Positions 37,546 to 52,279 of a stretch of DNA of 64,000 bases are shown one piece after another. Made by a program: the position numbers and the translations under genes. The notes under the pieces are model-generated. The model saw nothing but the letters and a program-made list of their open reading frames with translations. It had not been told where the DNA came from and searched no databases. This stretch comes from Mycobacterium sp. ITM-2016-00316 (lineage in GTDB: Bacteria > Actinomycetota > Actinomycetes > Mycobacteriales > Mycobacteriaceae): the NCBI RefSeq assembly GCF_002968335.2, contig NZ_CP134398.1:4774001-4838000 (forward strand), written 5' to 3'. Positions within the stretch are counted from its first letter, which is position 1. Each line of letters opens with the position of its first letter.

Positions 37546-38739
37546 ATGACAGCTTCGGTGAAGACACAGACCACTCGCGCGGAGTTCGCCGAACGCCTGC
37601 TCAAGGGGTCGGTGCGCAAGTCCTACGAACCCGTCGTGGATATCGACTGGGAAGCGCCGCTGGATCCGGACAAGTTCTATCTGCCACCCAAGGTGGTGTC
37701 GCTGTACGGCACGCCGATCTGGGAGGCGATGAGCCGGGCCGAGCAGATCGAACTGTCCCGCCAGGAACTGGTGAACACGCTGTCAGCCGGCATCTGGTTC
37801 GAGAACATCCTGAACCAGGCACTGCTGCGCAAGATGATGCACCAGGACCCGACCGCGGCCACCACCCACTACGAACTCACCGAACTCGGCGACGAGACCC
37901 GGCACATGGTGATGTTCGGCAAGGCCATCGCCAAGGTCGGTGCCGATCCGGTGCGCCCCAGGCTCTATCAACGCATCGCCATCAACGCCCTGCCGTTCGC
38001 GTTCCGCGGGTCGGTGCTGTGGGTCGCCGCGCTGATCGGCGAGGAGATCTTCGACTCGCTGCAACGCCAGATGATGGACGATGACGAACTGCAGCCGGTG
38101 GTGCAGCGCCTGATGCGCATCCATGTCACCGAGGAGGCCCGCCACATCCAGTTCGCCCGCGACGGACTGCGCAAGCGCATGCCGACGATGTCGCGCGCCA
38201 AGCGGATGTGGGTGGGCAACCTCAACGGACTCGGCGGACCGTTCTTCCGGTTCCTGTTCACCAACAAGGTGCAGTATCACCGGGTCGGCCTGGACGGCCG
38301 GGCGGCGCGGCGGATGGCACGCCGGTCCCCGCACCGCCACCAGGTGCAGATCGCGGGCTTCGCCCCGCTGGCCTCGTTCCTGGAGGAGGTCGGCCTGATG
38401 GGCCCGATCGCGCGGCGGATGTGGCGGCGCAGCGGATTCCTGCCCGGCGGTGCGGTACAGCCGGCCGGGCGCGCCGAGATCGAGGAATCCGAGGACCTCT
38501 ATGACGGACCCGCCACCATCGAGGGCCGGGTGTCCCGGGTCCGACTCACCGGCCACCTGGACCCGATCGATGGTCAGTACCACTGGCAGGGAACCGTTTT
38601 CGAGGCGCTGCCCGATGACGCACGCAATCCCCTGTCCATCACGATCGAAAACCGGTCCGCGTCGGCCCGGTTCACCGAACGCAGCCAGCAGGGTGGCTAC
38701 TCGATCGCCGGCGTCGGCGTTCCGCCCTTCCCGCGGTAG
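37546..38739 (+). CDS. AurF-like diiron oxygenase fused to a DUF4873 domain
   Basis: 397 residues. The N-terminal ~270 residues are a ferritin-like four-helix diiron protein related to AurF p-aminobenzoate N-oxygenase. Two ExxH metal motifs are visible, GDETRHMVMFG and TEEARHIQFARDG, together with IGEEIFDSLQ for further carboxylate ligands. A C-terminal ~85-residue DUF4873 domain (YDGPATIEGRVSRVRLTGHLDP) follows; this domain normally accompanies Baeyer-Villiger-type monooxygenases in mycobacteria. It may activate O2 to oxidise an aromatic or aliphatic substrate. The start ATG 37546 has GAGGGAG 8 nt upstream. Confidence 0.83.
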   Translation: MTASVKTQTTRAEFAERLLKGSVRKSYEPVVDIDWEAPLDPDKFYLPPKVVSLYGTPIWEAMSRAEQIELSRQELVNTLSAGIWFENILNQALLRKMMHQDPTAATTHYELTELGDETRHMVMFGKAIAKVGADPVRPRLYQRIAINALPFAFRGSVLWVAALIGEEIFDSLQRQMMDDDELQPVVQRLMRIHVTEEARHIQFARDGLRKRMPTMSRAKRMWVGNLNGLGGPFFRFLFTNKVQYHRVGLDGRAARRMARRSPHRHQVQIAGFAPLASFLEEVGLMGPIARRMWRRSGFLPGGAVQPAGRAEIEESEDLYDGPATIEGRVSRVRLTGHLDPIDGQYHWQGTVFEALPDDARNPLSITIENRSASARFTERSQQGGYSIAGVGVPPFPR

Positions 38740-38789: not shown

Positions 38790-39671
38790 ATGCGGTTCAC
38801 CTATGCGGAAGCCATGACCGATCCCAAGTACTACATCCCGTTGGCGAAAGCCGCCGACGAGGCCGGGTACCACGGGATGACCATCGCCGACAGCGTCGCC
38901 TACCCCAAGGTCTCGGACTCGACATATCCCTACACCGAGGACGGCAACCGCGAATTTCTCGACGGCAAGTCGTTCATCGAGACCTTCGCGCTCATCGGGG
39001 CATTGTCCGCGGTGACGACGAAACTCCAGTTCAACGTCTTCGTGCTCAAGCTGCCGATCCGGCCGCCGGCGCTGGTCGCCAAGCAGGCCGGTTCGCTCGC
39101 GGCGATGTTCGACAACCGCCTCAACCTCGGTGTAGGCACCAGCCCGTGGCCGGAGGACTACGAGATCATGGGCGTGCCGTACGCACGCCGCGGTAAGCGG
39201 ATGGACGAGTGCATCGACGTCATCCGCGGGCTCACCTCCGGTGACTACTTTGAGTATCACGGCGAGTTCTACGACTTCCCGTCCTTCAAGATGACCCCGG
39301 CGCCCACCAAGCCGATCCCGATCCTGATCGGTGGGCACGCGGACGCCGCGCTCAAGCGCGCCGCGCGCAACGACGGCTGGATGCACGGTGGCGGCGATCC
39401 CGCGGAGCTCGACCCACTGCTGGCCAAGCTGAAGAAGTACCGGGAGGAAGAGGAACGCATCGGCCTGGCCGACGAGTTCCAGATCCACGTCATCTCGATC
39501 GACGGTTTCACCCTGGACGGCGTCAAGCGCCTGGAGGACAAGGGCGTCACCGATGTCATCGTGGGCTTCCGGATTCCTTACATCATGGGACAGGACACCG
39601 AGCCGCTCGACGACAAGATCCGCAACTTGGAGTGGTTCGCCGAAAATGTGATCGCCAAGGCCAACGGGTAG
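38790..39671 (+). CDS. LLM-class F420-dependent oxidoreductase (Rv0940c-like)
   Basis: 293 residues. Luciferase-like TIM barrel: RFTYAEAMTDPKYYIPLAKA, FVLKLPIRPPALVAKQAGSLA, RLNLGVGTSPWPEDYEIMG, then KPIPILIGGHADAALKRAARNDGWMHGG. The strings are typical of the mycobacterial F420 clade represented by Rv0940c. The second LLM gene of the window with a KstR-type operator at its start codon, so likely part of the sterol-catabolism regulon. Substrate unknown. Confidence 0.9.
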   Translation: MRFTYAEAMTDPKYYIPLAKAADEAGYHGMTIADSVAYPKVSDSTYPYTEDGNREFLDGKSFIETFALIGALSAVTTKLQFNVFVLKLPIRPPALVAKQAGSLAAMFDNRLNLGVGTSPWPEDYEIMGVPYARRGKRMDECIDVIRGLTSGDYFEYHGEFYDFPSFKMTPAPTKPIPILIGGHADAALKRAARNDGWMHGGGDPAELDPLLAKLKKYREEEERIGLADEFQIHVISIDGFTLDGVKRLEDKGVTDVIVGFRIPYIMGQDTEPLDDKIRNLEWFAENVIAKANG

Positions 39672-42963: not shown

Positions 42964-43425
42964 ATGACCGACTGGGCCGACGAGCATCTGGCGATGTACC
43001 TCGAATCCGGCGGGGCCAAGGGCCACATCCTGGACCTGAGCGAAGGGGGCGGCCGCGCCTTCACCACCAACTGCCTGATCCGCTACCGGGGCCGCACGTC
43101 GGGCCAGACCTATGTCAAGCCGCTCATCTACGGAAACTTCGGCGGCGAACTCGTCGTGGTGGCCTCCAAGGGCGGCGCCGACGTTCATCCGCAGTGGTAC
43201 AACAACATTCGGGCGAGTTCAACGGTCGACGTACAGGTCGCCACCCAGGCTTTCGAGGCGAGCTGGCGTGAGCTCGAGGATGAGGAGCGACACGAAGCCT
43301 GGTCGTATATGACCCACCTGTATCCGCCGTACATCACCTATCAGCAGTCGACGAGCCGCCGGATTCCACTGGTGGCGCTGGCCGTCGGCCGACCGATCGA
43401 TATCTTCACGCAGCACAGCGCTTGA
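42964..43425 (+). CDS. Nitroreductase/deazaflavin-dependent (Ddn-like) family protein
   Basis: 153 residues from ATG 42964 (TDWADEHLAMYLESGGAKGH). Split beta-barrel flavin/F420-binding fold of the Ddn family: LIRYRGRTSGQTYVKPLIYG, ELVVVASKGGADVHPQWYNN and EERHEAWSYMTHLYPPYITYQ. Mycobacterial members use F420H2 to reduce quinones, mycotoxins or nitroimidazoles. Its last 20 nt overlap the glycosyltransferase gene on the other strand. Confidence 0.87.
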   Translation: MTDWADEHLAMYLESGGAKGHILDLSEGGGRAFTTNCLIRYRGRTSGQTYVKPLIYGNFGGELVVVASKGGADVHPQWYNNIRASSTVDVQVATQAFEASWRELEDEERHEAWSYMTHLYPPYITYQQSTSRRIPLVALAVGRPIDIFTQHSA

Positions 43426-44683
43426 GCGCATTGGCAATGGCATCGATCGGTGTCGTCGCTTCGATCGCTCGTTGTATCCGCCGTCCCGCCGCCCGGTAGC
43501 GGTCATCGCACAGAACGCGGTCGACGGCATCACCGATGGCGGCGGCAGTGGGCATGGAGGTGCCCAGATCCACCCCGACGCCGGTGTGATCGACGCGGGC
43601 GGCCACCTCCGCTTTGTCGGATGTCTCGCCGGCGACCACCAGCGGCACCCCGTGACTCAGCGCGTACTGCACACCGCCGTAGCCGCCGTTGGTGACCATG
43701 ACATCGACGTGTGGCATCAGCGCCGGATACGGCAGCCAGTCCGTCACCCGCGTGTTCGCCGGTATGGGGCAGGTCAGAGTCGCATCGGCGCGCGCGGTGG
43801 TGACCACCACCAGGAGATCGTCCCGATCACCGAGAGCCGCCAGCGTCGGCGAGATCAGCTGGTCGAGGTCGGTGTTGTCGAATGTCCCCTGGGTGACGTG
43901 CACGACCGCCCGGGCCCGCTGAACATCGGACCACCATTCCGGTAGTTCTCTGTCTCCCTTGTTTTTCGCGGCCAGGACCGGGCCCACGAACTCCACCGTC
44001 GGTGGCAGATCCGAACGCGGGTACTCGAACTCCTGGACCGACAGCTGGACCACCGCGTCGGCCAGGCGGGGCCAGTCGCTGATGAACACCGGGGCCGGAC
44101 GGGAACCGGCGCTGCGCAGTGCGCGGTCGAACCGGCGCTGACTGCCGCGCATGATGACGCGGTGGGCGACGGCCGTCATCGGCCGATAGTCGACGCCCGT
44201 TTCGGGTTGCCACGCCATGCCGAAGGGCGGGATGTCGGCGCTGGAGAGGGTCAGCGGTCCCACGTTGCACACCAGCACCGGAGGCCGTGGCCCCTCCTGC
44301 AGCAGCAGGGGTAGCGCACCGGTGAAGGTCACGTCCGCCAGCACGGCGTCAAAGGTGTCACCCTGCAGCGCGGCACGCAGAGAACGGGCCTCCGCGGCAA
44401 GCGGTCTGGCAAAAACGGTGTCCAGTTCGGCGCGCCCCAACCAGAACCGCCGCAGTTGCGCCGGGACACGACGCAACACCGCGGGGGCAGCCGACGGCGG
44501 ATCGATCTGGATGTCCTCGGGCAGGGCGAGTACGGGCAGCCCGGCCCTGCGTGCCAAGTCGCCGAACCCCGAGCCGGTCAGCAGGGTGACATCGTGCCCG
44601 AGTTCCCGCAGCCCCGTCCCGATATCGATCATCGGCAACACGTGACCCCGAATCGGGCTGACGGCAAGCAGGTATCGCGCCAA
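43406..44683 (-). CDS. UGT-type (CrtX-like) glycosyltransferase
   Basis: 425 residues from TTG 44683, which has AAGGAAG 4 nt upstream. GT-B fold: ARYLLAVSPIRGHVLPMIDIG at the N-terminus and a C-terminal nucleotide-sugar-binding block with VVHVTQGTFDN, DWLPYPALMPHVDVMVTNGG and QYALSHGVPLVVAGE. It is divergent from crtE, 200 nt away, which suggests it glucosylates the carotenoid, comparable to CrtX. Linkage to carotenoids is inferred from position only. Confidence 0.8.
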   Translation of the reverse strand: MARYLLAVSPIRGHVLPMIDIGTGLRELGHDVTLLTGSGFGDLARRAGLPVLALPEDIQIDPPSAAPAVLRRVPAQLRRFWLGRAELDTVFARPLAAEARSLRAALQGDTFDAVLADVTFTGALPLLLQEGPRPPVLVCNVGPLTLSSADIPPFGMAWQPETGVDYRPMTAVAHRVIMRGSQRRFDRALRSAGSRPAPVFISDWPRLADAVVQLSVQEFEYPRSDLPPTVEFVGPVLAAKNKGDRELPEWWSDVQRARAVVHVTQGTFDNTDLDQLISPTLAALGDRDDLLVVVTTARADATLTCPIPANTRVTDWLPYPALMPHVDVMVTNGGYGGVQYALSHGVPLVVAGETSDKAEVAARVDHTGVGVDLGTSMPTAAAIGDAVDRVLCDDRYRAAGRRIQRAIEATTPIDAIANALKRCAA

Positions 44684-44883
44684 TCCACTTCCTTCGCTCG
44701 GGACACCCCTGGTGCCCTGTTTGCTCCCCGCTCAAACCGAGCATCACCTGCACCACGCTACCCACTGAATATCGTTGTGCCGGAGACCCACTGCGAGCCC
44801 GTCACCGTCGGGGGGTGGGTGCCGTCCGGGCAATGCCGTCACTCGCCGCTTAGAACCGGAAAAAGTGGGTACATTCAAGATCG
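44684..44883. promoter_or_regulatory. Divergent promoter region of the carotenoid cluster
   Basis: 200 nt between the glycosyltransferase and crtE. On the crtE side GGGTAC (44867-44872) has the -10 shape of mycobacterial SigF/SigB-type promoters and would give an mRNA starting next to the ATG, but no matching -35 GGTTT was found at the expected spacing. The other 180 nt hold nothing clear. Confidence 0.35.
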
Positions 44884-45999
44884 ATGGCAGCACGAACCGA
44901 GGCCGCGACTCAGCCACCCGTCGTCGCCGGCTCGACAGACTCTCCGTGGCTGACGCCGTTGCGCGACCGGGTGCTGGCAGCCGTGGCCGACTTCCTGGAC
45001 ACGCGCTGCAGCGACGCCCTGCACGGCGCCCACGTCGATATCGCCGAAGGAGTCCTGCGCGGCATGCTGGCCGAAGGCAAGTGCGTGCGCTCCAGTTACC
45101 TCTATCTCGGCTGGCAATGCGGTGCCCAACCTTCCGAGGCGACGGTGCGGGCGGCGGCGAGCCTGGAATTACTGCATGCCTTCGCACTGGTCCAGGACGA
45201 TGTGATGGACGAGTCCGATATGCGGCGCGGACGTCCGAGCGCTCACCGCGCGTTCGAGCGATGGCACCAGGAGCGCGGTCTGCCCGGATCATCGGCCCGA
45301 TTCGGCGAGTCCGCCGCCGTCCTGCTCGGCGATCTGTGTCTGGTGTGGGCGGAGCAGATGCTTCGCGAAAGCGGTGTGGGTGCGACCGCACTGGCACGCG
45401 CCTGGCCGCGGTACGACGCGATGCGCACCGAACTCGCGGTCGGACAGTTCGCCGATCTGGTCAATGACAGTGCGGGGTTTCCCAGCCTCGCCGACGTGCT
45501 CGACGTCGCGCGCCGCAAGTCCGGCAACTACACGGTGCGCCGGCCGCTGGAGATCGGCGCCGCACTCGCCGGCTGTGATGACACGGTGCTCGCCATGCTG
45601 GGCCGCTACGGCGGCGCGATCGGTGAGGCCTTCCAGCTCCGCGATGACCTGCTGGGGGTCTTCGGCGCACCCGCGACGACCGGCAAGCCCACCGGTACCG
45701 ATCTGATCGCGCGGAAGGCCACGACCGTGGTGGTCGCGGGATACGAACTGGCATCCGGCGCCCAACAGCGCCAGTTCAAGGAATTCATGACGGCCGACCA
45801 TCTCAGCTCCGATGACGTGACTCGGTGGCAGGCCCTGATCTCGGAGGTGGGAACGGTGAACTGGATAGAGGACATGATCGGCCAGAGACACACGGCGGCG
45901 GTCGAGGCGTTGGGTAGCCTCAGCCCGAACGAACTCGATGCCGGCGCCCGGTCGGCGCTCATCACCATGGCCTCGGCCTGCACCGAGCGGGCGGCCTGA
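44884..45999 (+). CDS. crtE: Geranylgeranyl diphosphate synthase
   Basis: 371 residues. Trans-prenyltransferase that builds the C20 substrate GGPP for phytoene. The first aspartate motif LVQDDVMDESDMRRG (DDxxD) and the second QLRDDLLGVFG are both intact, and MLAEGKCVRSSYLYLGW binds the diphosphate. First gene of the crt operon. Its stop shares one base with the crtI ATG (TGATG), showing tight coupling. No ribosome-binding site is visible before ATG 44884. Confidence 0.93.
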   Translation: MAARTEAATQPPVVAGSTDSPWLTPLRDRVLAAVADFLDTRCSDALHGAHVDIAEGVLRGMLAEGKCVRSSYLYLGWQCGAQPSEATVRAAASLELLHAFALVQDDVMDESDMRRGRPSAHRAFERWHQERGLPGSSARFGESAAVLLGDLCLVWAEQMLRESGVGATALARAWPRYDAMRTELAVGQFADLVNDSAGFPSLADVLDVARRKSGNYTVRRPLEIGAALAGCDDTVLAMLGRYGGAIGEAFQLRDDLLGVFGAPATTGKPTGTDLIARKATTVVVAGYELASGAQQRQFKEFMTADHLSSDDVTRWQALISEVGTVNWIEDMIGQRHTAAVEALGSLSPNELDAGARSALITMASACTERAA

Positions 46000-47510
46000 T
46001 GCGCACCGTGCCCGGACGGACCGAGAACGTGGTCGTGGTGGGTGCCGGCCTGTCGGGGCTGTCGGCGGCGCTACACCTGGCCGGACGGGGACGGCGGGTC
46101 ACCGTCGTCGAACGTGGCTCCCACCCCGGTGGGCGGGTCGGCCGCGCCGATGTGTCCGGGTACCGCATCGACACCGGACCGACGGTCCTGACGATGCCCG
46201 ACATCCTCGATGAAGCCTTCGCCGCGGTCGGAGAATCCACCGCGGACCGTCTCGACCTGATGCCCGTCGACCCCGCCTACCGCGCCTCTTTCGCCGATGG
46301 CAGCAGCCTGGACGTGCACAGCGATGTCAACGCGATGGCCGCCGAGATCGAGCGGTTCGCCGGACGCGCCGAGGCCGACGGATACCTGCGGCTGCGGGAG
46401 TGGCTGACCCGGCTCTATCAGCTCGAGTTCGACGGGTTCATCGGTTCGAACTTCGACTCGCCGCTGTCCCTGCTCACCCCCCAGCTGGCGAAGCTGGCGG
46501 CGATCGGCGGTTTTCGGCGGTGGGAGCCGATGGTGCGACGGTTCATCACCGACGAGCGGCTGCTGCGGGTGTTCACCTTCCAGGCCCTCTATGTCGGGGT
46601 GCCGCCCAAGCGGGCACTGGCTGCCTACGCCGTCATCGCCTACATGGACACCGTCTCCGGTGTCTATTTCCCGCGGGGCGGTATGCGTGCCCTGCCCGAC
46701 GCGTTGGCCGCCGCCGCGTCGGACGCCGGTGTCGAGTTCCGCTACGACGCCAAGGTTTCCGAAATCGAGCGGTCCGGATCGCGGGTCACCGCGGTGCGTA
46801 CCGACACCGGTGAGCGGTTCGCGGCAGACGCGGTCATCCTCACCACAGAGCTGCCCGACACCTACCGGTTGCTCGGACGCACGCCCCGTCGTCCGGCCCG
46901 ACTGCAGCCGGCGCCGTCGGCGGTGGTCGCGCATATCGGTTGCCGCGCTTCCGCTTCCGCGGATGCCGCATCGCATCACACCATCCTGTTCGGCAACGAA
47001 TGGGACCGGACGTTCGATGAGATCATCGATCAGGGCCGGCCGATGGTGGACCCGTCGCTGCTCGTCACCCGCCCGACCGCCGGCGATCCGACCCTCGCCC
47101 CGGACGGCCGGGACCTGCTCTATGTTCTTGCACCGGCTCCCAATACCGATGTCGGGGGCAAGGATTGGGATAGCGACCGCGCCGACTACACCGCGCAGAT
47201 GCTGGACACCGTCACCGCACGGCTCCCGCACCTCGGTGAGGATCCCGAGATCCTGCACGTCGTGACACCCCGGGACTGGGCCCGTCAGGGAATGATCGCG
47301 GGCACCCCGTTCGCGTTGTCCCACACTTTCGGTCAGACCGGGCCGTTCCGGCCGGCCAACACGATTCGCGGTATCGACAATGCGGTGCTGGCCGGCTCGT
47401 CCACCGTGCCCGGCGTCGGCATCCCGACCGCCATCGTGTCGGGTCGCCTGGCCGCCGACAGAATCACCGGAGTCGTAACACCGACCCGCGCACGGACTGT
47501 GACTCGATGA
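45999..47510 (+). CDS. crtI: Phytoene desaturase (CrtI-type)
   Basis: 503 residues. FAD enzyme converting phytoene to lycopene. Dinucleotide motif VVVGAGLSGLSAALHLAGRG and FAD loop HPGGRVGRADVSG at the N-terminus; the C-terminal AGSSTVPGVGIPTAIVSGR is the carotenoid-desaturase signature. Length and motifs are complete. It overlaps crtE by one base and ends 13 nt before crtB. Confidence 0.95.
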   Translation: MRTVPGRTENVVVVGAGLSGLSAALHLAGRGRRVTVVERGSHPGGRVGRADVSGYRIDTGPTVLTMPDILDEAFAAVGESTADRLDLMPVDPAYRASFADGSSLDVHSDVNAMAAEIERFAGRAEADGYLRLREWLTRLYQLEFDGFIGSNFDSPLSLLTPQLAKLAAIGGFRRWEPMVRRFITDERLLRVFTFQALYVGVPPKRALAAYAVIAYMDTVSGVYFPRGGMRALPDALAAAASDAGVEFRYDAKVSEIERSGSRVTAVRTDTGERFAADAVILTTELPDTYRLLGRTPRRPARLQPAPSAVVAHIGCRASASADAASHHTILFGNEWDRTFDEIIDQGRPMVDPSLLVTRPTAGDPTLAPDGRDLLYVLAPAPNTDVGGKDWDSDRADYTAQMLDTVTARLPHLGEDPEILHVVTPRDWARQGMIAGTPFALSHTFGQTGPFRPANTIRGIDNAVLAGSSTVPGVGIPTAIVSGRLAADRITGVVTPTRARTVTR

Positions 47511-47523
47511 TGGGGGCCAGCAC

Positions 47524-48495
47524 ATGATCCACTCCGAACTGGATGCGGCGGGGGTACAGGGGGCGCAACTGCGGGCGGCCTACCAACGCTGCCGGGCGCT
47601 CAATGCCGCCCACGGCAAGACGTTCTTCCTGGCAACCCGGTTGTTGTCGCCGCGGCAACGCCCGGCCGTGCACGCGCTCTACGGTTTCGCCCGGCGGGCC
47701 GACGACGTGCTGGACGGATTCGACGATCGCACGACCACCGAGCGCGCCGACGAGTTACAGGGGCTGGCCGACGCACTGCACAGCCGGTTGGTGATGAACC
47801 GCGTGGAAGGTGACGATCCGGTGCTGGATGCGGTCGTCGACACCGCCCGCAACTACGGTCTGGAGTGGCAGCTGTTCGACGACTTCCTGGCCTCCATGCG
47901 GATGGATCTCACCGTCACCGACTATCCCGACCGGGCTGCACTGGACAGGTACATGTACGGGTCCGCCGAGGTGATCGGCCTGCAGTTGTTGCCGGTGCTG
48001 GGCACCGTGGTCTCCCGCGCGGAGGCGGCCCCGCACGCCGCGGCCCTGGGAAAAGCGTTCCAGCTCACCAACTTCCTGCGTGATATCGACGAAGACCTCA
48101 CCCGTGGGCGGGTGTACCTGCCCGCCGATGAACTGGCCCACCACGGCGTGGACCGCGAGGTGCTCACCTGGTGCCAGCAGAACCGCCGCACCGACCCGCG
48201 ACTGCGGGCCGCCCTGGTCGAGCAGCACGCGCTGACCCGGGGCATCTATGACCACGCCGAACGCGGTATCCCGTTGCTGGAGCCGCAATCCCGGCCGTGT
48301 ATCCGGGCGGCCCTGACGCTGTACTCAGAAATCCTCGACCGCATCGAGGAGATGAACTTCGAGGTCTTCAGCCATCGTGCGACAGTATCGAACCGCCGCC
48401 GCCTGCAGGTCGCAGGCCGTGGACTGATCGATGCATGGCGCGCCCGCGCCCGCCACAAGGGGGAACCGCCGGCGGGCAAGGCCGATGCCGCATGA
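47524..48495 (+). CDS. crtB: Phytoene synthase
   Basis: 323 residues. Joins two GGPP to phytoene. YGFARRADDVLDGFDD contains the first Asp-rich motif and FLRDIDEDLTRGRVYLP the second; DLTVTDYPDRAALDRYMYGSAEVIG is the trans-isoprenyl synthase signature. ATG 47524 follows GGGGG. Overlaps the next gene by ATGA. Confidence 0.95.
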   Translation: MIHSELDAAGVQGAQLRAAYQRCRALNAAHGKTFFLATRLLSPRQRPAVHALYGFARRADDVLDGFDDRTTTERADELQGLADALHSRLVMNRVEGDDPVLDAVVDTARNYGLEWQLFDDFLASMRMDLTVTDYPDRAALDRYMYGSAEVIGLQLLPVLGTVVSRAEAAPHAAALGKAFQLTNFLRDIDEDLTRGRVYLPADELAHHGVDREVLTWCQQNRRTDPRLRAALVEQHALTRGIYDHAERGIPLLEPQSRPCIRAALTLYSEILDRIEEMNFEVFSHRATVSNRRRLQVAGRGLIDAWRARARHKGEPPAGKADAA

Positions 48496-49202
48496 GCACT
48501 ACGCAATACAATGTTCCCGAGGCCTTCGACGCCGGCGCAGGCGCCTATGACGGGTTGGTCGGCGCCAACCCGGGCTACCACCGACACCTGCGGCTGTCCG
48601 CCGAGCGCATGCGCCTACCCGACGGCGGCCGAGGGTTGACACTGCTCGATATCGGCTGCGGCACAGGAGCTTCCACTGCTGCGCTGCTGCATGCGGCGCC
48701 GCACGCGCGCATCGTGGGCGTCGACGGTTCGGCGGGAATGCTCGCCTGTGCCCGCTCGAAGACGTGGCCCGCCACGGTGTCATTCGTGCAGAGCCGCGCC
48801 GAAGATCTGGCACAGGCCGGTGTGAGCGGGCCGTTCGACGGGATCCTGTCCGCCTATCTGGTCCGCAATCTGCCCGACCCCGACCCGGTGCTGCGCGCGC
48901 TGCTGGCCCTGCTGAAACCCGGTGGCATCTTAGCCGCGCACGAATACTCGGTGCGTGACTCCCGCCGCGCCACCGCGATGTGGAATCTGGTGTCGTGCGC
49001 CGTCATCATCCCGGCCGGAAAGATCCGGACCGGCGACGCGGAGCTGTACCGATACCTGCGCCGCAGTGTCAACGACTTCGACGGCGCTGCCCGGTTCCGG
49101 GAGCGGCTGCAACACAACGGCTTCGTCGATGTCCGCAGCGAGACCATGCCGGGGTGGCAGAACGGGATCGTGCACACCTTCCTCGGCAGGGCGGCGTCGT
49201 GA
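48492..49202 (+). CDS. SAM-dependent methyltransferase of the carotenoid operon (CrtT-like)
   Basis: 236 residues from ATG 48492, coupled to crtB by ATGA. Class I methyltransferase: LLDIGCGTGASTAALLHA (motif I), GVDGSAGMLACARS (motif II) and FDGILSAYLVRNLPDPDPVLR (UbiE-like region). A methyltransferase-like gene lies at the same place in other actinobacterial isorenieratene clusters (crtT), but its substrate is unsettled; CrtU moves a methyl group and does not need SAM. Ends in a GTGA overlap with crtU. Confidence 0.85.
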   Translation: MSTTQYNVPEAFDAGAGAYDGLVGANPGYHRHLRLSAERMRLPDGGRGLTLLDIGCGTGASTAALLHAAPHARIVGVDGSAGMLACARSKTWPATVSFVQSRAEDLAQAGVSGPFDGILSAYLVRNLPDPDPVLRALLALLKPGGILAAHEYSVRDSRRATAMWNLVSCAVIIPAGKIRTGDAELYRYLRRSVNDFDGAARFRERLQHNGFVDVRSETMPGWQNGIVHTFLGRAAS

Positions 49203-50734
49203 GCGATACCCGCCGGGTCCTGCACCCCGCGGCGCCGGGCCTGCCGCACGCCGCACAGCTACCCGACCGTCCCACGGTGGCGGTCGTGGGCGGCGGTATC
49301 GCCGGGCTGAGCGCGGCGGCCGCGCTGGCCGAGCGCGGTGTCCAGGTGCATCTTTTCGAGCGGCAGTCCTATCTGGGCGGGCGGGTGGGCGGTTGGACCG
49401 AGACCCTGCCGGATGGCTCGCCGGTGGCGATGAACCGCGGCTTCCACGCCTTCTTCCGCCAGTACTACAACCTGCGCAACCTGCTTCGACGCATCGATCC
49501 CGATTTGTCCATGTTCAGCCCGCTGGACGACTATCCACTCGTCGATGCGAATGGCCGACGCGACACCTTCCGGGGGCTGCCACGCACACCACCCTTCAAC
49601 GCCATGGCATTCGCGTTGCGTAGCCCGACGTTCCGGCTACGCGATCTGGTGCGCCTGGACGCGAAGGCGGCGGCCCCACTGGCGGCGGTGTCGGTGCCCG
49701 AGACCTACTGGCAACTCGACGACATCGACGCCGAATCCTTCCTGCGGGATATCAACTTTCCCGCGGCGGCCCGGCATCTGGCGTTCGAGGTGTTCTCCCG
49801 CAGCTTCTTCACCCGGCCCGAGGCGCTGTCGGCTGCCGAGTTGGCGACGATGTTCCACATCTACTTTCTCGGCTCCAGCGAAGGCCTGGTATTCGACGTC
49901 GCTGCGGCGAACTTCGATGTCGCGCTGTGGCAACCGCTGGAGCGGTATCTGCGCGGCCACGGCGCCCAGATCTACCTGGAGACCGCGGTCCGCAGCGTCA
50001 CCGATGACGGCGACGGCTCGTTCACGGTGACCGACGACTCCGGTGCCACCGTCAGCGCAGACGGCGTGGTGCTGGCCACCGAGGTGCCGGCACTGCAACA
50101 CATCGTCGCCGCATCTCCGGGCCTCGGCGACAGCGAATGGCGCGGCCAGATAGGCGATCTCGGGTCGGCTGCTCCGTTCGTGGTGCGTCGGCTCTGGCTG
50201 GACCGCCCGGTGAACGACGACAGACCTGCCTTTCTGGGCACCGGCGGGTTGCCGCCGCTGGACAACATCAGCGTGCTGAACCGCTACGAGAGTGAAGCGG
50301 CGTCCTGGGCGCGGCGCACCGGGGGCTCCGTGGTGGAACTGCACGCCTACTCCGTCACCGAGGACACCCCGGAGTTGCGCAGCCGACTGGACGCCCGACT
50401 CTACGAGTTGTACCCGGAGACCGCAGCGGCCGGCGTGGTCCACGAAAGCACGTTGTGCCGCAGCGATTGTCCGCGCCTGGGCCCGGGGGATTTCGCGAAC
50501 CGGCCCACCGTGGCGACGTCGCAGGACGGACTCGTGCTGGCCGGTGACGGTATCCGGATCGATCTGCCGGTGGCGCTGATGGAGCGTGCGGCAACCACCG
50601 GCCTCGCCGCGGCCAACACCCTCCTGGGGCGCTTCGGCGTGCGGGGCCACGATCTGTACACGGTGCCGGTACGCGGGCGCTCTGCCGTGCTGCGGGGCCT
50701 CGCCGACCGGGTGGAGGGGCGGGTGCGGACATGA
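49199..50734 (+). CDS. crtU: Carotenoid phi-ring synthase (isorenieratene synthase, CrtU)
   Basis: 511 residues from GTG 49199, overlapping the previous stop. FAD-dependent desaturase/methyl-shift enzyme that turns beta-ionone rings into aromatic phi rings. Motifs: VAVVGGGIAGLSAAAALAERG, YLGGRVGGWTETLPDGSP, then MNRGFHAFFRQYYNLRNLLR, which is typical of CrtU, and TMFHIYFLGSSEGLVFDV. The C-terminus VLAGDGIRIDLPVALMERA closes the FAD site. Acts on a cyclised carotene, so a lycopene cyclase is needed upstream in the pathway but none is found in this operon. Confidence 0.88.
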   Translation: MSDTRRVLHPAAPGLPHAAQLPDRPTVAVVGGGIAGLSAAAALAERGVQVHLFERQSYLGGRVGGWTETLPDGSPVAMNRGFHAFFRQYYNLRNLLRRIDPDLSMFSPLDDYPLVDANGRRDTFRGLPRTPPFNAMAFALRSPTFRLRDLVRLDAKAAAPLAAVSVPETYWQLDDIDAESFLRDINFPAAARHLAFEVFSRSFFTRPEALSAAELATMFHIYFLGSSEGLVFDVAAANFDVALWQPLERYLRGHGAQIYLETAVRSVTDDGDGSFTVTDDSGATVSADGVVLATEVPALQHIVAASPGLGDSEWRGQIGDLGSAAPFVVRRLWLDRPVNDDRPAFLGTGGLPPLDNISVLNRYESEAASWARRTGGSVVELHAYSVTEDTPELRSRLDARLYELYPETAAAGVVHESTLCRSDCPRLGPGDFANRPTVATSQDGLVLAGDGIRIDLPVALMERAATTGLAAANTLLGRFGVRGHDLYTVPVRGRSAVLRGLADRVEGRVRT

Positions 50735-51801
50735 AAGCCTGGCCATTTCAACTGCTTCCGCGCCTCGAATGGAGCCGACAGCGACCGACCTTCGGTCAGG
50801 CCGCGCCCTCGCTGATCGCCGCCGCGCTGGCCAGGTCCCAGCGCAGGCCCAGCGGGAACTGGTATGTGGTCGGGGCCAGCACCGATGTCGCGGGCACGCC
50901 GTTCGGTGTGACGGTCGCCGGGGCCGAACTGGTGTGCTGGCGCGATGGCGAAGGCGGACTCCACGCCGGACCGGCGCGGTGTCCGCACCTGGGCGCCGAT
51001 CTGTGCACCGCAGCGATCGACCGCGGCCACCTGGTCTGCCCGTGGCACGGATTGCGACTGACCGGCCGGGGACGGCCGGACTGGCCCACCCTGCCGGTGT
51101 TCGACGACGGTGTGCTGGTGTGGGTTCGGCTGGATCGGATCGGCGGCGAGCAACCCACCGAGTCCCCGATTCTGTCAGCCCGCCCTGATGGTCCGCGAAT
51201 CTCGGCGGTTGCCAGCATGTCCGGCGCGTGTGAACCGGCCGATATCATCGCCAACCGAATGGACCCGTGGCACGGCGCCTGGTTCCATCCCTATTCGTTC
51301 GCCCAGCTGGAGGTATTGAGCGCGCCGGCTGAGGATCCGGATCTGGCCGAGGACGAGGACCGGTTCCTGGTGGCGGTCACATTCCGGATCGGCCGGCTCG
51401 GGGTGCCGGTGATCGCCGAGTTCACCAGCCCCGAGCCACGGACACTGACCATGCGCATCATCGACGGTGAGGGCAGCGGTAGCGTGGTCGAAACCCATGC
51501 GACCCCTAACGGCCGCGGGCCGGACGGCCGCCCGCGCAGCACGGTGATCGAAGCGGTCGTCGCACACTCCGACCGTCCCGGGTTCGCGCGGGCGCTGCCG
51601 GCGCAGTCGTTGATCGTGCCATTCATGCGCAAGGCGGCCCATCGGCTGTGGCGTGACGACCTGGAGTACGCCGAGCGCCTGCAGGTGGTGAACCGTCAGG
51701 ACGCCGATGGCACAGCGGATTTGCTCAGGCCGCCGGCCGAGCCCAGCCCGGCAGATCCGCAGCCTCCAGCAGTGGTACCTGATCCTGCGCCCAAGGGCTG
51801 A
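50731..51801 (+). CDS. Rieske non-heme iron oxygenase-like protein (DUF5914) at the end of the carotenoid operon
   Basis: 356 residues, ATG overlapping crtU (ATGA). The Rieske [2Fe-2S] domain has CPH (C84, H86) and CPWH (C103, H106). The second domain has NRMDPWHGAWFH (N175, D178, H181, H186), matching NxxDxxHx4H of mononuclear-iron sites in Rieske oxygenases. RDDLEYAERLQ near 308 resembles the C-terminal region that supplies the third (Asp) ligand, possibly D309 or D310. So it looks like a complete oxygenase, for example a ring hydroxylase of the carotenoid. The last ~25 residues are a Pro-rich tail (PPAEPSPADPQPP) coded antisense to the end of idi. Confidence 0.82.
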   Translation: MKAWPFQLLPRLEWSRQRPTFGQAAPSLIAAALARSQRRPSGNWYVVGASTDVAGTPFGVTVAGAELVCWRDGEGGLHAGPARCPHLGADLCTAAIDRGHLVCPWHGLRLTGRGRPDWPTLPVFDDGVLVWVRLDRIGGEQPTESPILSARPDGPRISAVASMSGACEPADIIANRMDPWHGAWFHPYSFAQLEVLSAPAEDPDLAEDEDRFLVAVTFRIGRLGVPVIAEFTSPEPRTLTMRIIDGEGSGSVVETHATPNGRGPDGRPRSTVIEAVVAHSDRPGFARALPAQSLIVPFMRKAAHRLWRDDLEYAERLQVVNRQDADGTADLLRPPAEPSPADPQPPAVVPDPAPKG

Positions 51802-52279
51802 TCGCCCAGTCCAGGGCGGCGGCGGAGCGCACCTCGCTCCAGTCGACCCACACCATGTCCATGACCTCACGCGGCTCCGGTGCAAGCGCACCGTCGATGA
51901 GCGCACAGAAGACCGGGCATATCTCGTTCTCCACGGTGCCATCGGCGGCGCGGGCGCGGTAGCGGAATTCCGGGAGCACGCAGTGCACATCCCGGATCGC
52001 CACGCCGAGTTCCTGGTAACCGCGCCGGTGCACGGCGTCGACGATCGCTTCACCGGGAGCGGGATGGCCACAGAAGGAGTTGGTCCACACTCCGGGCCAG
52101 GTCTGTTTGTCCAGCGCGCGACGGGTCAGCAGGACGCGGCCGGATTCGTCGAACAGGTAGCAGGAGAATCCCAGGTGCAACGGGGTATCGGTGTGGTGGA
52201 CGGCGGCCTTGGCGGCGCTCCCGATCATGTTGCCTGCATCATCGAGCAGGACGACCTGCTCCTCCGGGATCGCATTCAC
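51725..52279 (-). CDS. idi: Isopentenyl-diphosphate delta-isomerase type I
   Basis: 184 residues from GTG 52279, chosen because family proteins begin at VNAIPEEQVVLLDD; earlier in-frame GTG codons (52345, 52450) would run into the secreted-protein gene. Nudix-like fold: TRRALDKQTWPGVWTNSF, the catalytic Cys in NSFCGHPAPGE and the Glu in GTVENEICPVF. Isomerises IPP to DMAPP, supplying prenyl units to crtE. Convergent with the operon; its last 77 nt overlap the Rieske gene. Confidence 0.94.
   Translation of the reverse strand: MNAIPEEQVVLLDDAGNMIGSAAKAAVHHTDTPLHLGFSCYLFDESGRVLLTRRALDKQTWPGVWTNSFCGHPAPGEAIVDAVHRRGYQELGVAIRDVHCVLPEFRYRARAADGTVENEICPVFCALIDGALAPEPREVMDMVWVDWSEVRSAAALDWAISPWAQDQVPLLEAADLPGWARPAA

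Follow-up and report, generated by a model that had tools for sequence, protein, structure and literature searches.

Which enzyme closes the ring in an aromatic-carotenoid operon that encodes no lycopene cyclase? This question is raised by a 64,000-nucleotide stretch of the genome of a soil mycobacterium, Mycobacterium sp. ITM-2016-00316 (the window; G000:C1:4774001-4838000), which carries the operon crtE-crtI-crtB-crtT-crtU-crtV. CrtU, one of its products, is thought to require a ring end. G000 is the window's own genome, which is 5.99 Mb in size, consists of one contig, and is 99.99% complete; below, L numbers denote loci or contig stretches and G numbers the genomes compared. The nearest named relative listed was Mycolicibacterium frederiksbergense LB 501T (L011), with a CrtV identity of 98%. 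We hold it to be highly probable that the operon lost a two-part cyclase, crtYc-crtYd, and that an unlinked CrtL protein of another family took over cyclization. The likeliest explanation of what we describe is that one or the other of two cyclases was lost repeatedly, rather than that the product is acyclic.

No lycopene cyclase in the carotenoid operon

The genes of the operon, a probable deletion scar, and the unlinked cyclase gene are the following.

44884..45999, + strand: crtE, polyprenyl (geranylgeranyl) diphosphate synthase; PF00348, 157 bits; 39% identity to Streptomyces anulatus CrtE
45999..47510, + strand: crtI, phytoene desaturase; TIGR02734, 507 bits (above the cutoff); 59% identity to S. 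anulatus CrtI
47524..48495, + strand: crtB, phytoene synthase; PF00494, 230 bits; 56% identity to S. anulatus CrtB
48468..48491, + strand: probable scar of a crtYc-crtYd deletion (the last codons of crtB resemble a crtYd tail)
48492..49202, + strand: crtT, UbiE-type S-adenosylmethionine (SAM) methyltransferase; PF01209, 85 bits; 56% identity to S. anulatus CrtT
49199..50734, + strand: crtU, carotenoid ring desaturase/methyl-migrating enzyme; 57% identity to the protein at the CrtU position of the S. anulatus crtYTU array
50731..51801, + strand: crtV, putative Rieske nonheme iron oxygenase (Rieske and DUF5914 domains); 57% identity to S. anulatus CrtV
G000:C1:5859850-5861079 (L001:1480-2712): crtL, flavin adenine dinucleotide (FAD)-dependent CrtL-type lycopene cyclase; 410 residues from a GTG start

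Four of the five junctions among the six operon genes overlap by 1 to 4 bases, and crtI and crtB are separated by a gap of 13 bp. The crtT start, taken from the sequence, overlaps the crtB stop. The gene set had been proposed in a sequence-only reading as crtE-crtI-crtB-methyltransferase-crtU-Rieske gene with a divergent glycosyltransferase gene and a convergent idi, and every gene was found where that reading had placed it. Because of the comparison with the S. anulatus plasmid cluster, the methyltransferase gene was identified as crtT and the Rieske gene as crtV. Both crtU and crtV are present in all 80 named loci, crtB in 75, and crtT in 73, some of the absences being contig ends; given this conservation, the grouping of the operon genes is not due to chance. 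Taken together, crtE, crtI, crtB, and crtU with the accessory crtT and crtV form the actinobacterial aromatic-carotenoid (isorenieratene-type) set, except that the cyclase expected within such a cluster was missing. A CrtU-specific family model was not among the NCBIfam matches listed for crtU, and we take its reaction to be that of an aromatic phi-end synthase, as in Streptomyces.

The absence of a recognizable cyclase from the operon, also proposed from the sequence, was borne out when 10 window proteins were scanned: no lycopene cyclase family was among their Pfam matches (E value, 0.001; complete lists) or among their listed NCBIfam matches (the best 25 for three of them). A cyclase hidden in the operon and recognized on rereading was thereby rejected. 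Furthermore, TIGR03462, the CrtYc/CrtYd model, gave 0 matches in the whole genome, while the control matched in 3 of 14 genomes. Since the genome is one nearly complete contig, an assembly gap hiding a cyclase gene is unlikely.

An unlinked CrtL-type cyclase

The model PF05834 (CrtY/CrtL) gave 12 matches in the genome, of which one, at G000:C1:5859871-5860974, was convincing (199.2 bits); the remaining eleven scored at most 36.1 bits. The two highest-scoring of these eleven, which were the ones examined, were rejected as cyclases, being a halogenase/QhpG-like FAD protein and the menaquinone reductase MenJ. The convincing match corresponds to crtL, which is located about 1.03 Mb beyond crtV. 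The CrtL protein scored 240.6 bits with TIGR01790 (lycopene cyclase family), above the cutoff of 209.5. It scored 237 bits with the CrtL model versus 33 bits with the CrtY model TIGR01789, both below their own equivalog cutoffs, and 236.6 bits with the lycopene beta cyclase equivalog NF045687, below the cutoff of 500. An LLEET motif at residue 203 is shared with four Rhodococcus/Prescottella proteins, and the LEET-type acidic motif of CrtL is presumably catalytic. In public sources, the relatives of CrtL are labeled "lycopene cyclase family protein"; in the PDB, no relative was found by sequence at an E value of 0.01. CrtL would act on lycopene in this organism, and the unlinked gene most likely supplies ring closure for the operon.

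Thus, the whole genome contains one convincing CrtL-type gene and no match for CrtYc or CrtYd. Of the two possibilities left by the sequence-only reading, a cyclase located elsewhere stands, while an acyclic product is not needed to explain the operon. Since the cyclase gene is about 1 Mb away, reading the pathway from a single cluster fails here.

Remnants of crtYc-crtYd at the crtB-crtT junction

In Mycobacterium aurum (L015) and in L012, a close draft relative, the interval between crtB and crtT is occupied by two short reading frames, and both frames of L012 match TIGR03462 above the cutoff. The search for CrtL was made for 50 of the 80 named loci. Among these 50 relatives, crtYc-crtYd directly follows crtB in 32, and in the window the pair is gone. 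Each of the 29 genomes without CrtL carries crtYc as well as crtYd in the operon (matches of 106 to 133 and 96 to 107 residues, respectively). The 21 genomes with CrtL comprise 12 with no trace of crtYc/Yd at an E value of 0.001, 5 with a short crtYd remnant (L017, L024, L025, L047, and L090), one with crtYd beside a truncated crtYc (L033), and 3 with both genes (L022, L045, and L053). The start of crtYc is still present in L090, as detected by tblastn, and, by eye, in L025. In L031 and L055, the stops in the crtYc matches fall upstream of the protein start.

Although otherwise free of remnants, the window probably retains a scar of the deletion at the end of crtB. Comparison of the 24 bases immediately 5' of crtT with the crtYd tail of L012 gives 15 matching positions, a value reached by 1 of 2,004 in-frame control 24-mers; comparison with the tail of L015 gives 14, a value reached by 24 of the 2,004 controls. 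The junction of the window and L011, that of L013, and that of L014 and L046 differ from one another, and these differences point to separate deletion events. On the operon tree, L012 is placed next to the window and L011, inside L013 (support, 89), and yet keeps crtYc and crtYd; CrtL was not found in its 4.0-Mb draft. The operon would thus lack a ring-forming enzyme because the older, two-part crtYc-crtYd was deleted.

Complementary distribution of the two cyclases in the genus

To extend the comparison, 248 genomes of the same genus were scanned for CrtL (E value, 1e-30), TIGR03462, and the crtV marker PF19299, which were found in 47, 133, and 164 genomes, respectively. A cyclase was present in 161 of the 164 crtV genomes: 116 had CrtYc/Yd only, 37 had CrtL only, 8 had both, and 3 had neither. 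The 84 genomes without crtV were different, with neither cyclase in 73, CrtYc/Yd only in 9, and CrtL only in 2. Accordingly, CrtL was found in 45 of 164 crtV-bearing genomes versus 2 of 84 crtV-less ones. One of the 8 genomes with both cyclases, G142, has a weak TIGR03462 match, and its CrtL gene occupies the same place as that of the L025 genome, whose operon holds only a remnant.

Within the 164 genomes, Fisher's test, which ignores kinship, gave a P value of 2e-25. Kinship was considered with an operon tree of concatenated CrtI, CrtB, CrtU, and CrtV (51 rows). The crtYc match of L033 lies just above the 1e-10 limit, and this locus was scored as not intact on the tree, its crtYc being truncated. 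The tree required 11 state changes for CrtYc/Yd and 12 for CrtL. Ten independent pairs on well-supported branches comprised 9 with opposite changes, 0 with changes in the same direction, and 1 with no difference (median P value, 0.0039). The complementarity is therefore replicated, and the cyclase swap appears to have been made many times in related species. Across the wider family, with the genus itself counted, a CrtL match (E value, 1e-20) was detected in 204 of 251 genomes and in 26 of 31 genera.

Several observations weigh against the replacement of crtYc-crtYd by CrtL. Some relatives hold both cyclases, so that exclusivity is not strict. Three genomes have crtV without either cyclase (G127, G167, and G211; completeness, 97, 90, and 85%), and the 2 CrtL genomes and 9 CrtYc/Yd genomes without crtV break the association from the other side. 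The operon tree was made by a quick method and was not bootstrapped. The CrtL protein is only about 40% identical to proteins of Rhodococcus erythropolis, the species with the nearest characterized enzyme known to us. Finally, the presence of CrtL may partly reflect horizontal exchange, as L020 and L024 take different positions in the CrtL and operon trees, without strong support.

Taking these points into account, we still favor the replacement, which could have proceeded as follows. The ancestral operon would have contained the heterodimeric lycopene cyclase genes crtYc-crtYd between crtB and crtT. The unlinked FAD-dependent CrtL would have assumed the cyclization step, and crtYc-crtYd would have been removed cleanly, with the crtB-crtT overlap preserved. 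In the resulting pathway, CrtE, CrtB, and CrtI would produce lycopene, CrtL would close one or both of its ends, CrtU would aromatize the ring or rings, and CrtV and CrtT would tailor the product. If so, the genus displays the replacement of one enzyme by an unrelated one with its stages visible: both genes present, broken remnants in the operon, and the old gene vanished. Moreover, whether both cyclases give the same product becomes directly testable.

Loss of one ancestral cyclase versus horizontal transfer

Clades in the CrtL tree agree for the most part with those in the operon tree, and the 22 CrtL proteins of mycobacteria group together, apart from 8 from other genera (support, 100/100). 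In addition, G000, G250, G280, and G285 have an Rv2525c-like gene no more than about 5 kb from crtL. In 4 of 17 CrtL-less genomes searched (L210, L211, L213, and L215), the Rv2525c-like gene is paired with the convergent neighbor that it has in G000, and no CrtL was found beside it in the stretch examined. We therefore favor the view that both cyclases are ancestral and that one of them was repeatedly lost. The first three of these observations speak against a spread of CrtL in Mycolicibacterium by repeated horizontal transfer, with crtYc/Yd decaying after each arrival. Such transfer would fit the patchy distribution of CrtL with its 12 changes on the operon tree, the variation of the crtL-flanking genes among species, and the different positions of L020 and L024 in the CrtL and operon trees; we regard it as a possible but unlikely account.

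Possible products of the operon

The chemical product of the operon can be approached from the gene content. CrtL could be a monocyclase like CrtLm of R. erythropolis, in which case the swap would replace isorenieratene, with its two rings, by a chlorobactene-like carotenoid with one ring, whose open end could be hydroxylated and glycosylated by the product of the adjacent glycosyltransferase gene. In line with this, the window CrtL shares 40% identity with the R. erythropolis cyclases but only 26% with the CrtY of the S. anulatus crtYTU array, and a glycosyltransferase gene adjoins the operon. According to a review (PMC7502451), CrtLm of strain AN12 yields almost exclusively gamma-carotene, and another Rhodococcus yields OH-chlorobactene glucosides. 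However, ring number cannot be read from 40% identity, and in Dietzia, an enzyme from this actinobacterial CrtL group reportedly enables synthesis of the two-ringed canthaxanthin (PMC2889829). The glycosyltransferase gene also adjoins the CrtYc/Yd operons of L015 and L019. A CruF-type hydratase (PF04240) gave 0 matches in G000, while the control matched in 3 of 14 genomes; a CrtC-type hydratase (PF07143) gave no match in G000, and no control genome matched either. Furthermore, all 80 loci retain crtU and crtV regardless of cyclase type, which argues mildly for the same product. We therefore consider a change of ring number doubtful.

A polar, glycosylated aromatic carotenoid is possible, judging from the genes present. 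The glycosyltransferase gene adjoins crtE in 7 of the 80 named loci (68 to 96% identity), some contigs ending too early to tell; these 7 include genomes of either cyclase type. The enzyme is of a generic macrolide/UDP type, and the three close plasmid relatives viewed, out of 128 records matched, lie in annotated neighborhoods of unrelated context, which gave nothing in favor of a carotenoid role. A bolder combination, which we rate as rather improbable, is that two unrelated, inherited cyclases were repeatedly dropped and that, should CrtL form one ring and CrtYc/Yd two, the pigment switches between a two-ringed aromatic and a one-ringed, glycosylatable form, with crtV performing an undescribed oxidation. 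If true, the topology of the pigment would have been varied repeatedly within Mycolicibacterium, making the genus a replicated natural experiment.

An operon working without cyclization to give an acyclic carotenoid, the distant CrtL serving something else, would suit the lack of a cyclase within the operon but is very improbable in view of the retained CrtU and of the enrichment of CrtL in crtV-bearing genomes, where it replaces CrtYc/Yd.

Elsewhere in the genome, a distant CrtO/CrtI-family protein is encoded at G000:C1:5039531-5041045 (L152; NF045689, 143 bits versus a cutoff of 1,000). It could be a carotenoid ketolase or another enzyme.

Comparison with known carotenoid gene clusters

The Streptomyces isorenieratene cluster (crtEIBV plus crtYTU) has the same gene set as the window except for the cyclase. 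On the S. anulatus plasmid, crtE-crtI-crtB-DUF5914 gene faces crtY-methyltransferase gene-crtU. Over the aligned stretches, CrtI, CrtB, CrtT, CrtU, and CrtV are 56 to 59% identical to the S. anulatus proteins, and CrtE is 39% identical. The S. anulatus cyclase gene adjoins crtT-crtU, whereas the window's cyclase gene is unlinked.

The mycobacterial crtYc-crtYd operon, represented by M. aurum L015, shares the order crtI-crtB-...-crtU-crtV with the window and, in L015, contains crtT. In PMC4694148, the Mycobacterium smegmatis operon is given as crtIBYcYdUV, and crtT is not named. Both the M. aurum and the M. smegmatis operons hold crtYc-crtYd; in the window, the pair is deleted and an unlinked crtL is found instead.

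A split gene arrangement has reportedly been found for sioxanthin in Salinispora. An unlinked lycopene cyclase has also been reported for Nocardia, whose carotenoid clusters, like the window, contain no cyclase, the lycopene cyclase gene being in a separate conserved locus; the accessible part of that source describes neither a CrtYc/Yd replacement nor fossils of a lost cyclase (PMC7413640). The CrtLm lycopene monocyclase of R. erythropolis (PMC7502451) belongs to a species whose proteins share the CrtL-type family and the LLEET motif with the window CrtL; we infer that the R. erythropolis proteins compared are CrtLm itself. No account of CrtL having replaced CrtYc/Yd more than once in Mycolicibacterium, with remnants of the older genes still in position, was found among the titles and abstract openings of the open-license literature searched.

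crtV as a putative oxygenase gene

In published Streptomyces (S. coelicolor) and M. smegmatis gene lists, crtV is labeled a methylesterase gene. Judged by its motifs and predicted fold, the product looks like a true Rieske nonheme iron oxygenase. The Rieske cluster ligands CxH...CxxH (from residue 84) and the mononuclear iron ligands NxxDxxHxxxxH (from residue 175) are present in 80 of 80 loci, and the latter motif is the iron-ligand pattern of the Rieske oxygenase family. The Rieske match covers residues 43 to 116 and the DUF5914 match residues 138 to 321, the predicted oxygenase fold spans both domains, and no esterase family was found in Pfam or NCBIfam at an E value of 0.001. By sequence comparison, the oxygenase gene is the crtV that isorenieratene clusters of the Streptomyces type normally contain, rather than something added to this operon in particular. 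The reclassification as an oxygenase gene would thus concern a gene retained in the aromatic-carotenoid clusters of both Streptomyces and mycobacteria. No reaction of crtV was found in the open-license literature searched.

Contrary to an assumption that crtT is always retained, the gene is dispensable. Of the 75 named loci with both crtB and crtU, 6 gave no match to it (L055, L071, L075, L078, L083, and L089), and these have either cyclase type where the cyclase was examined. Two crtV (DUF5914) matches each were detected in G043, G057, G168, G172, G176, G184, G186, and G224, some of which may hold second crt clusters.

Flanking elements and further observations

The operon is flanked by the following elements.

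43406..44683, - strand: MGT/UDPGT-type glycosyltransferase gene, transcribed divergently from crtE; TIGR01426, 104 bits (below the cutoff of 260), PF06722, and PF00201
44848..44871, + strand: candidate SigF-type promoter GCTT-N15-GGGTA, 5' of crtE; one mismatch to the consensus
51725..52279, - strand: idi, isopentenyl-diphosphate isomerase, convergent; NF002995, 253 bits, and TIGR02150, 153 bits, both above the cutoff

The 3' ends of crtV and idi overlap by 77 bp. The SigF consensus is GTTT-N14-19-GGGTA according to PMC4694148, and an exact match with a spacing of 14 to 18 was not present in the window. The GGGTA element is found shortly 5' of the crtE start in L011, L013, L014, L015, and L046 but was not seen in the segments inspected from L017 and L020.

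One locus, L056, comes from a contig deposited as draft genome sequence of Bifidobacterium breve but bears crt genes of the mycobacterial type, probably through contamination. Elsewhere, the window encodes an AurF-type N-oxygenase with a DUF4873 domain (37546-38739), followed by a luciferase-like monooxygenase gene (38790-39671).

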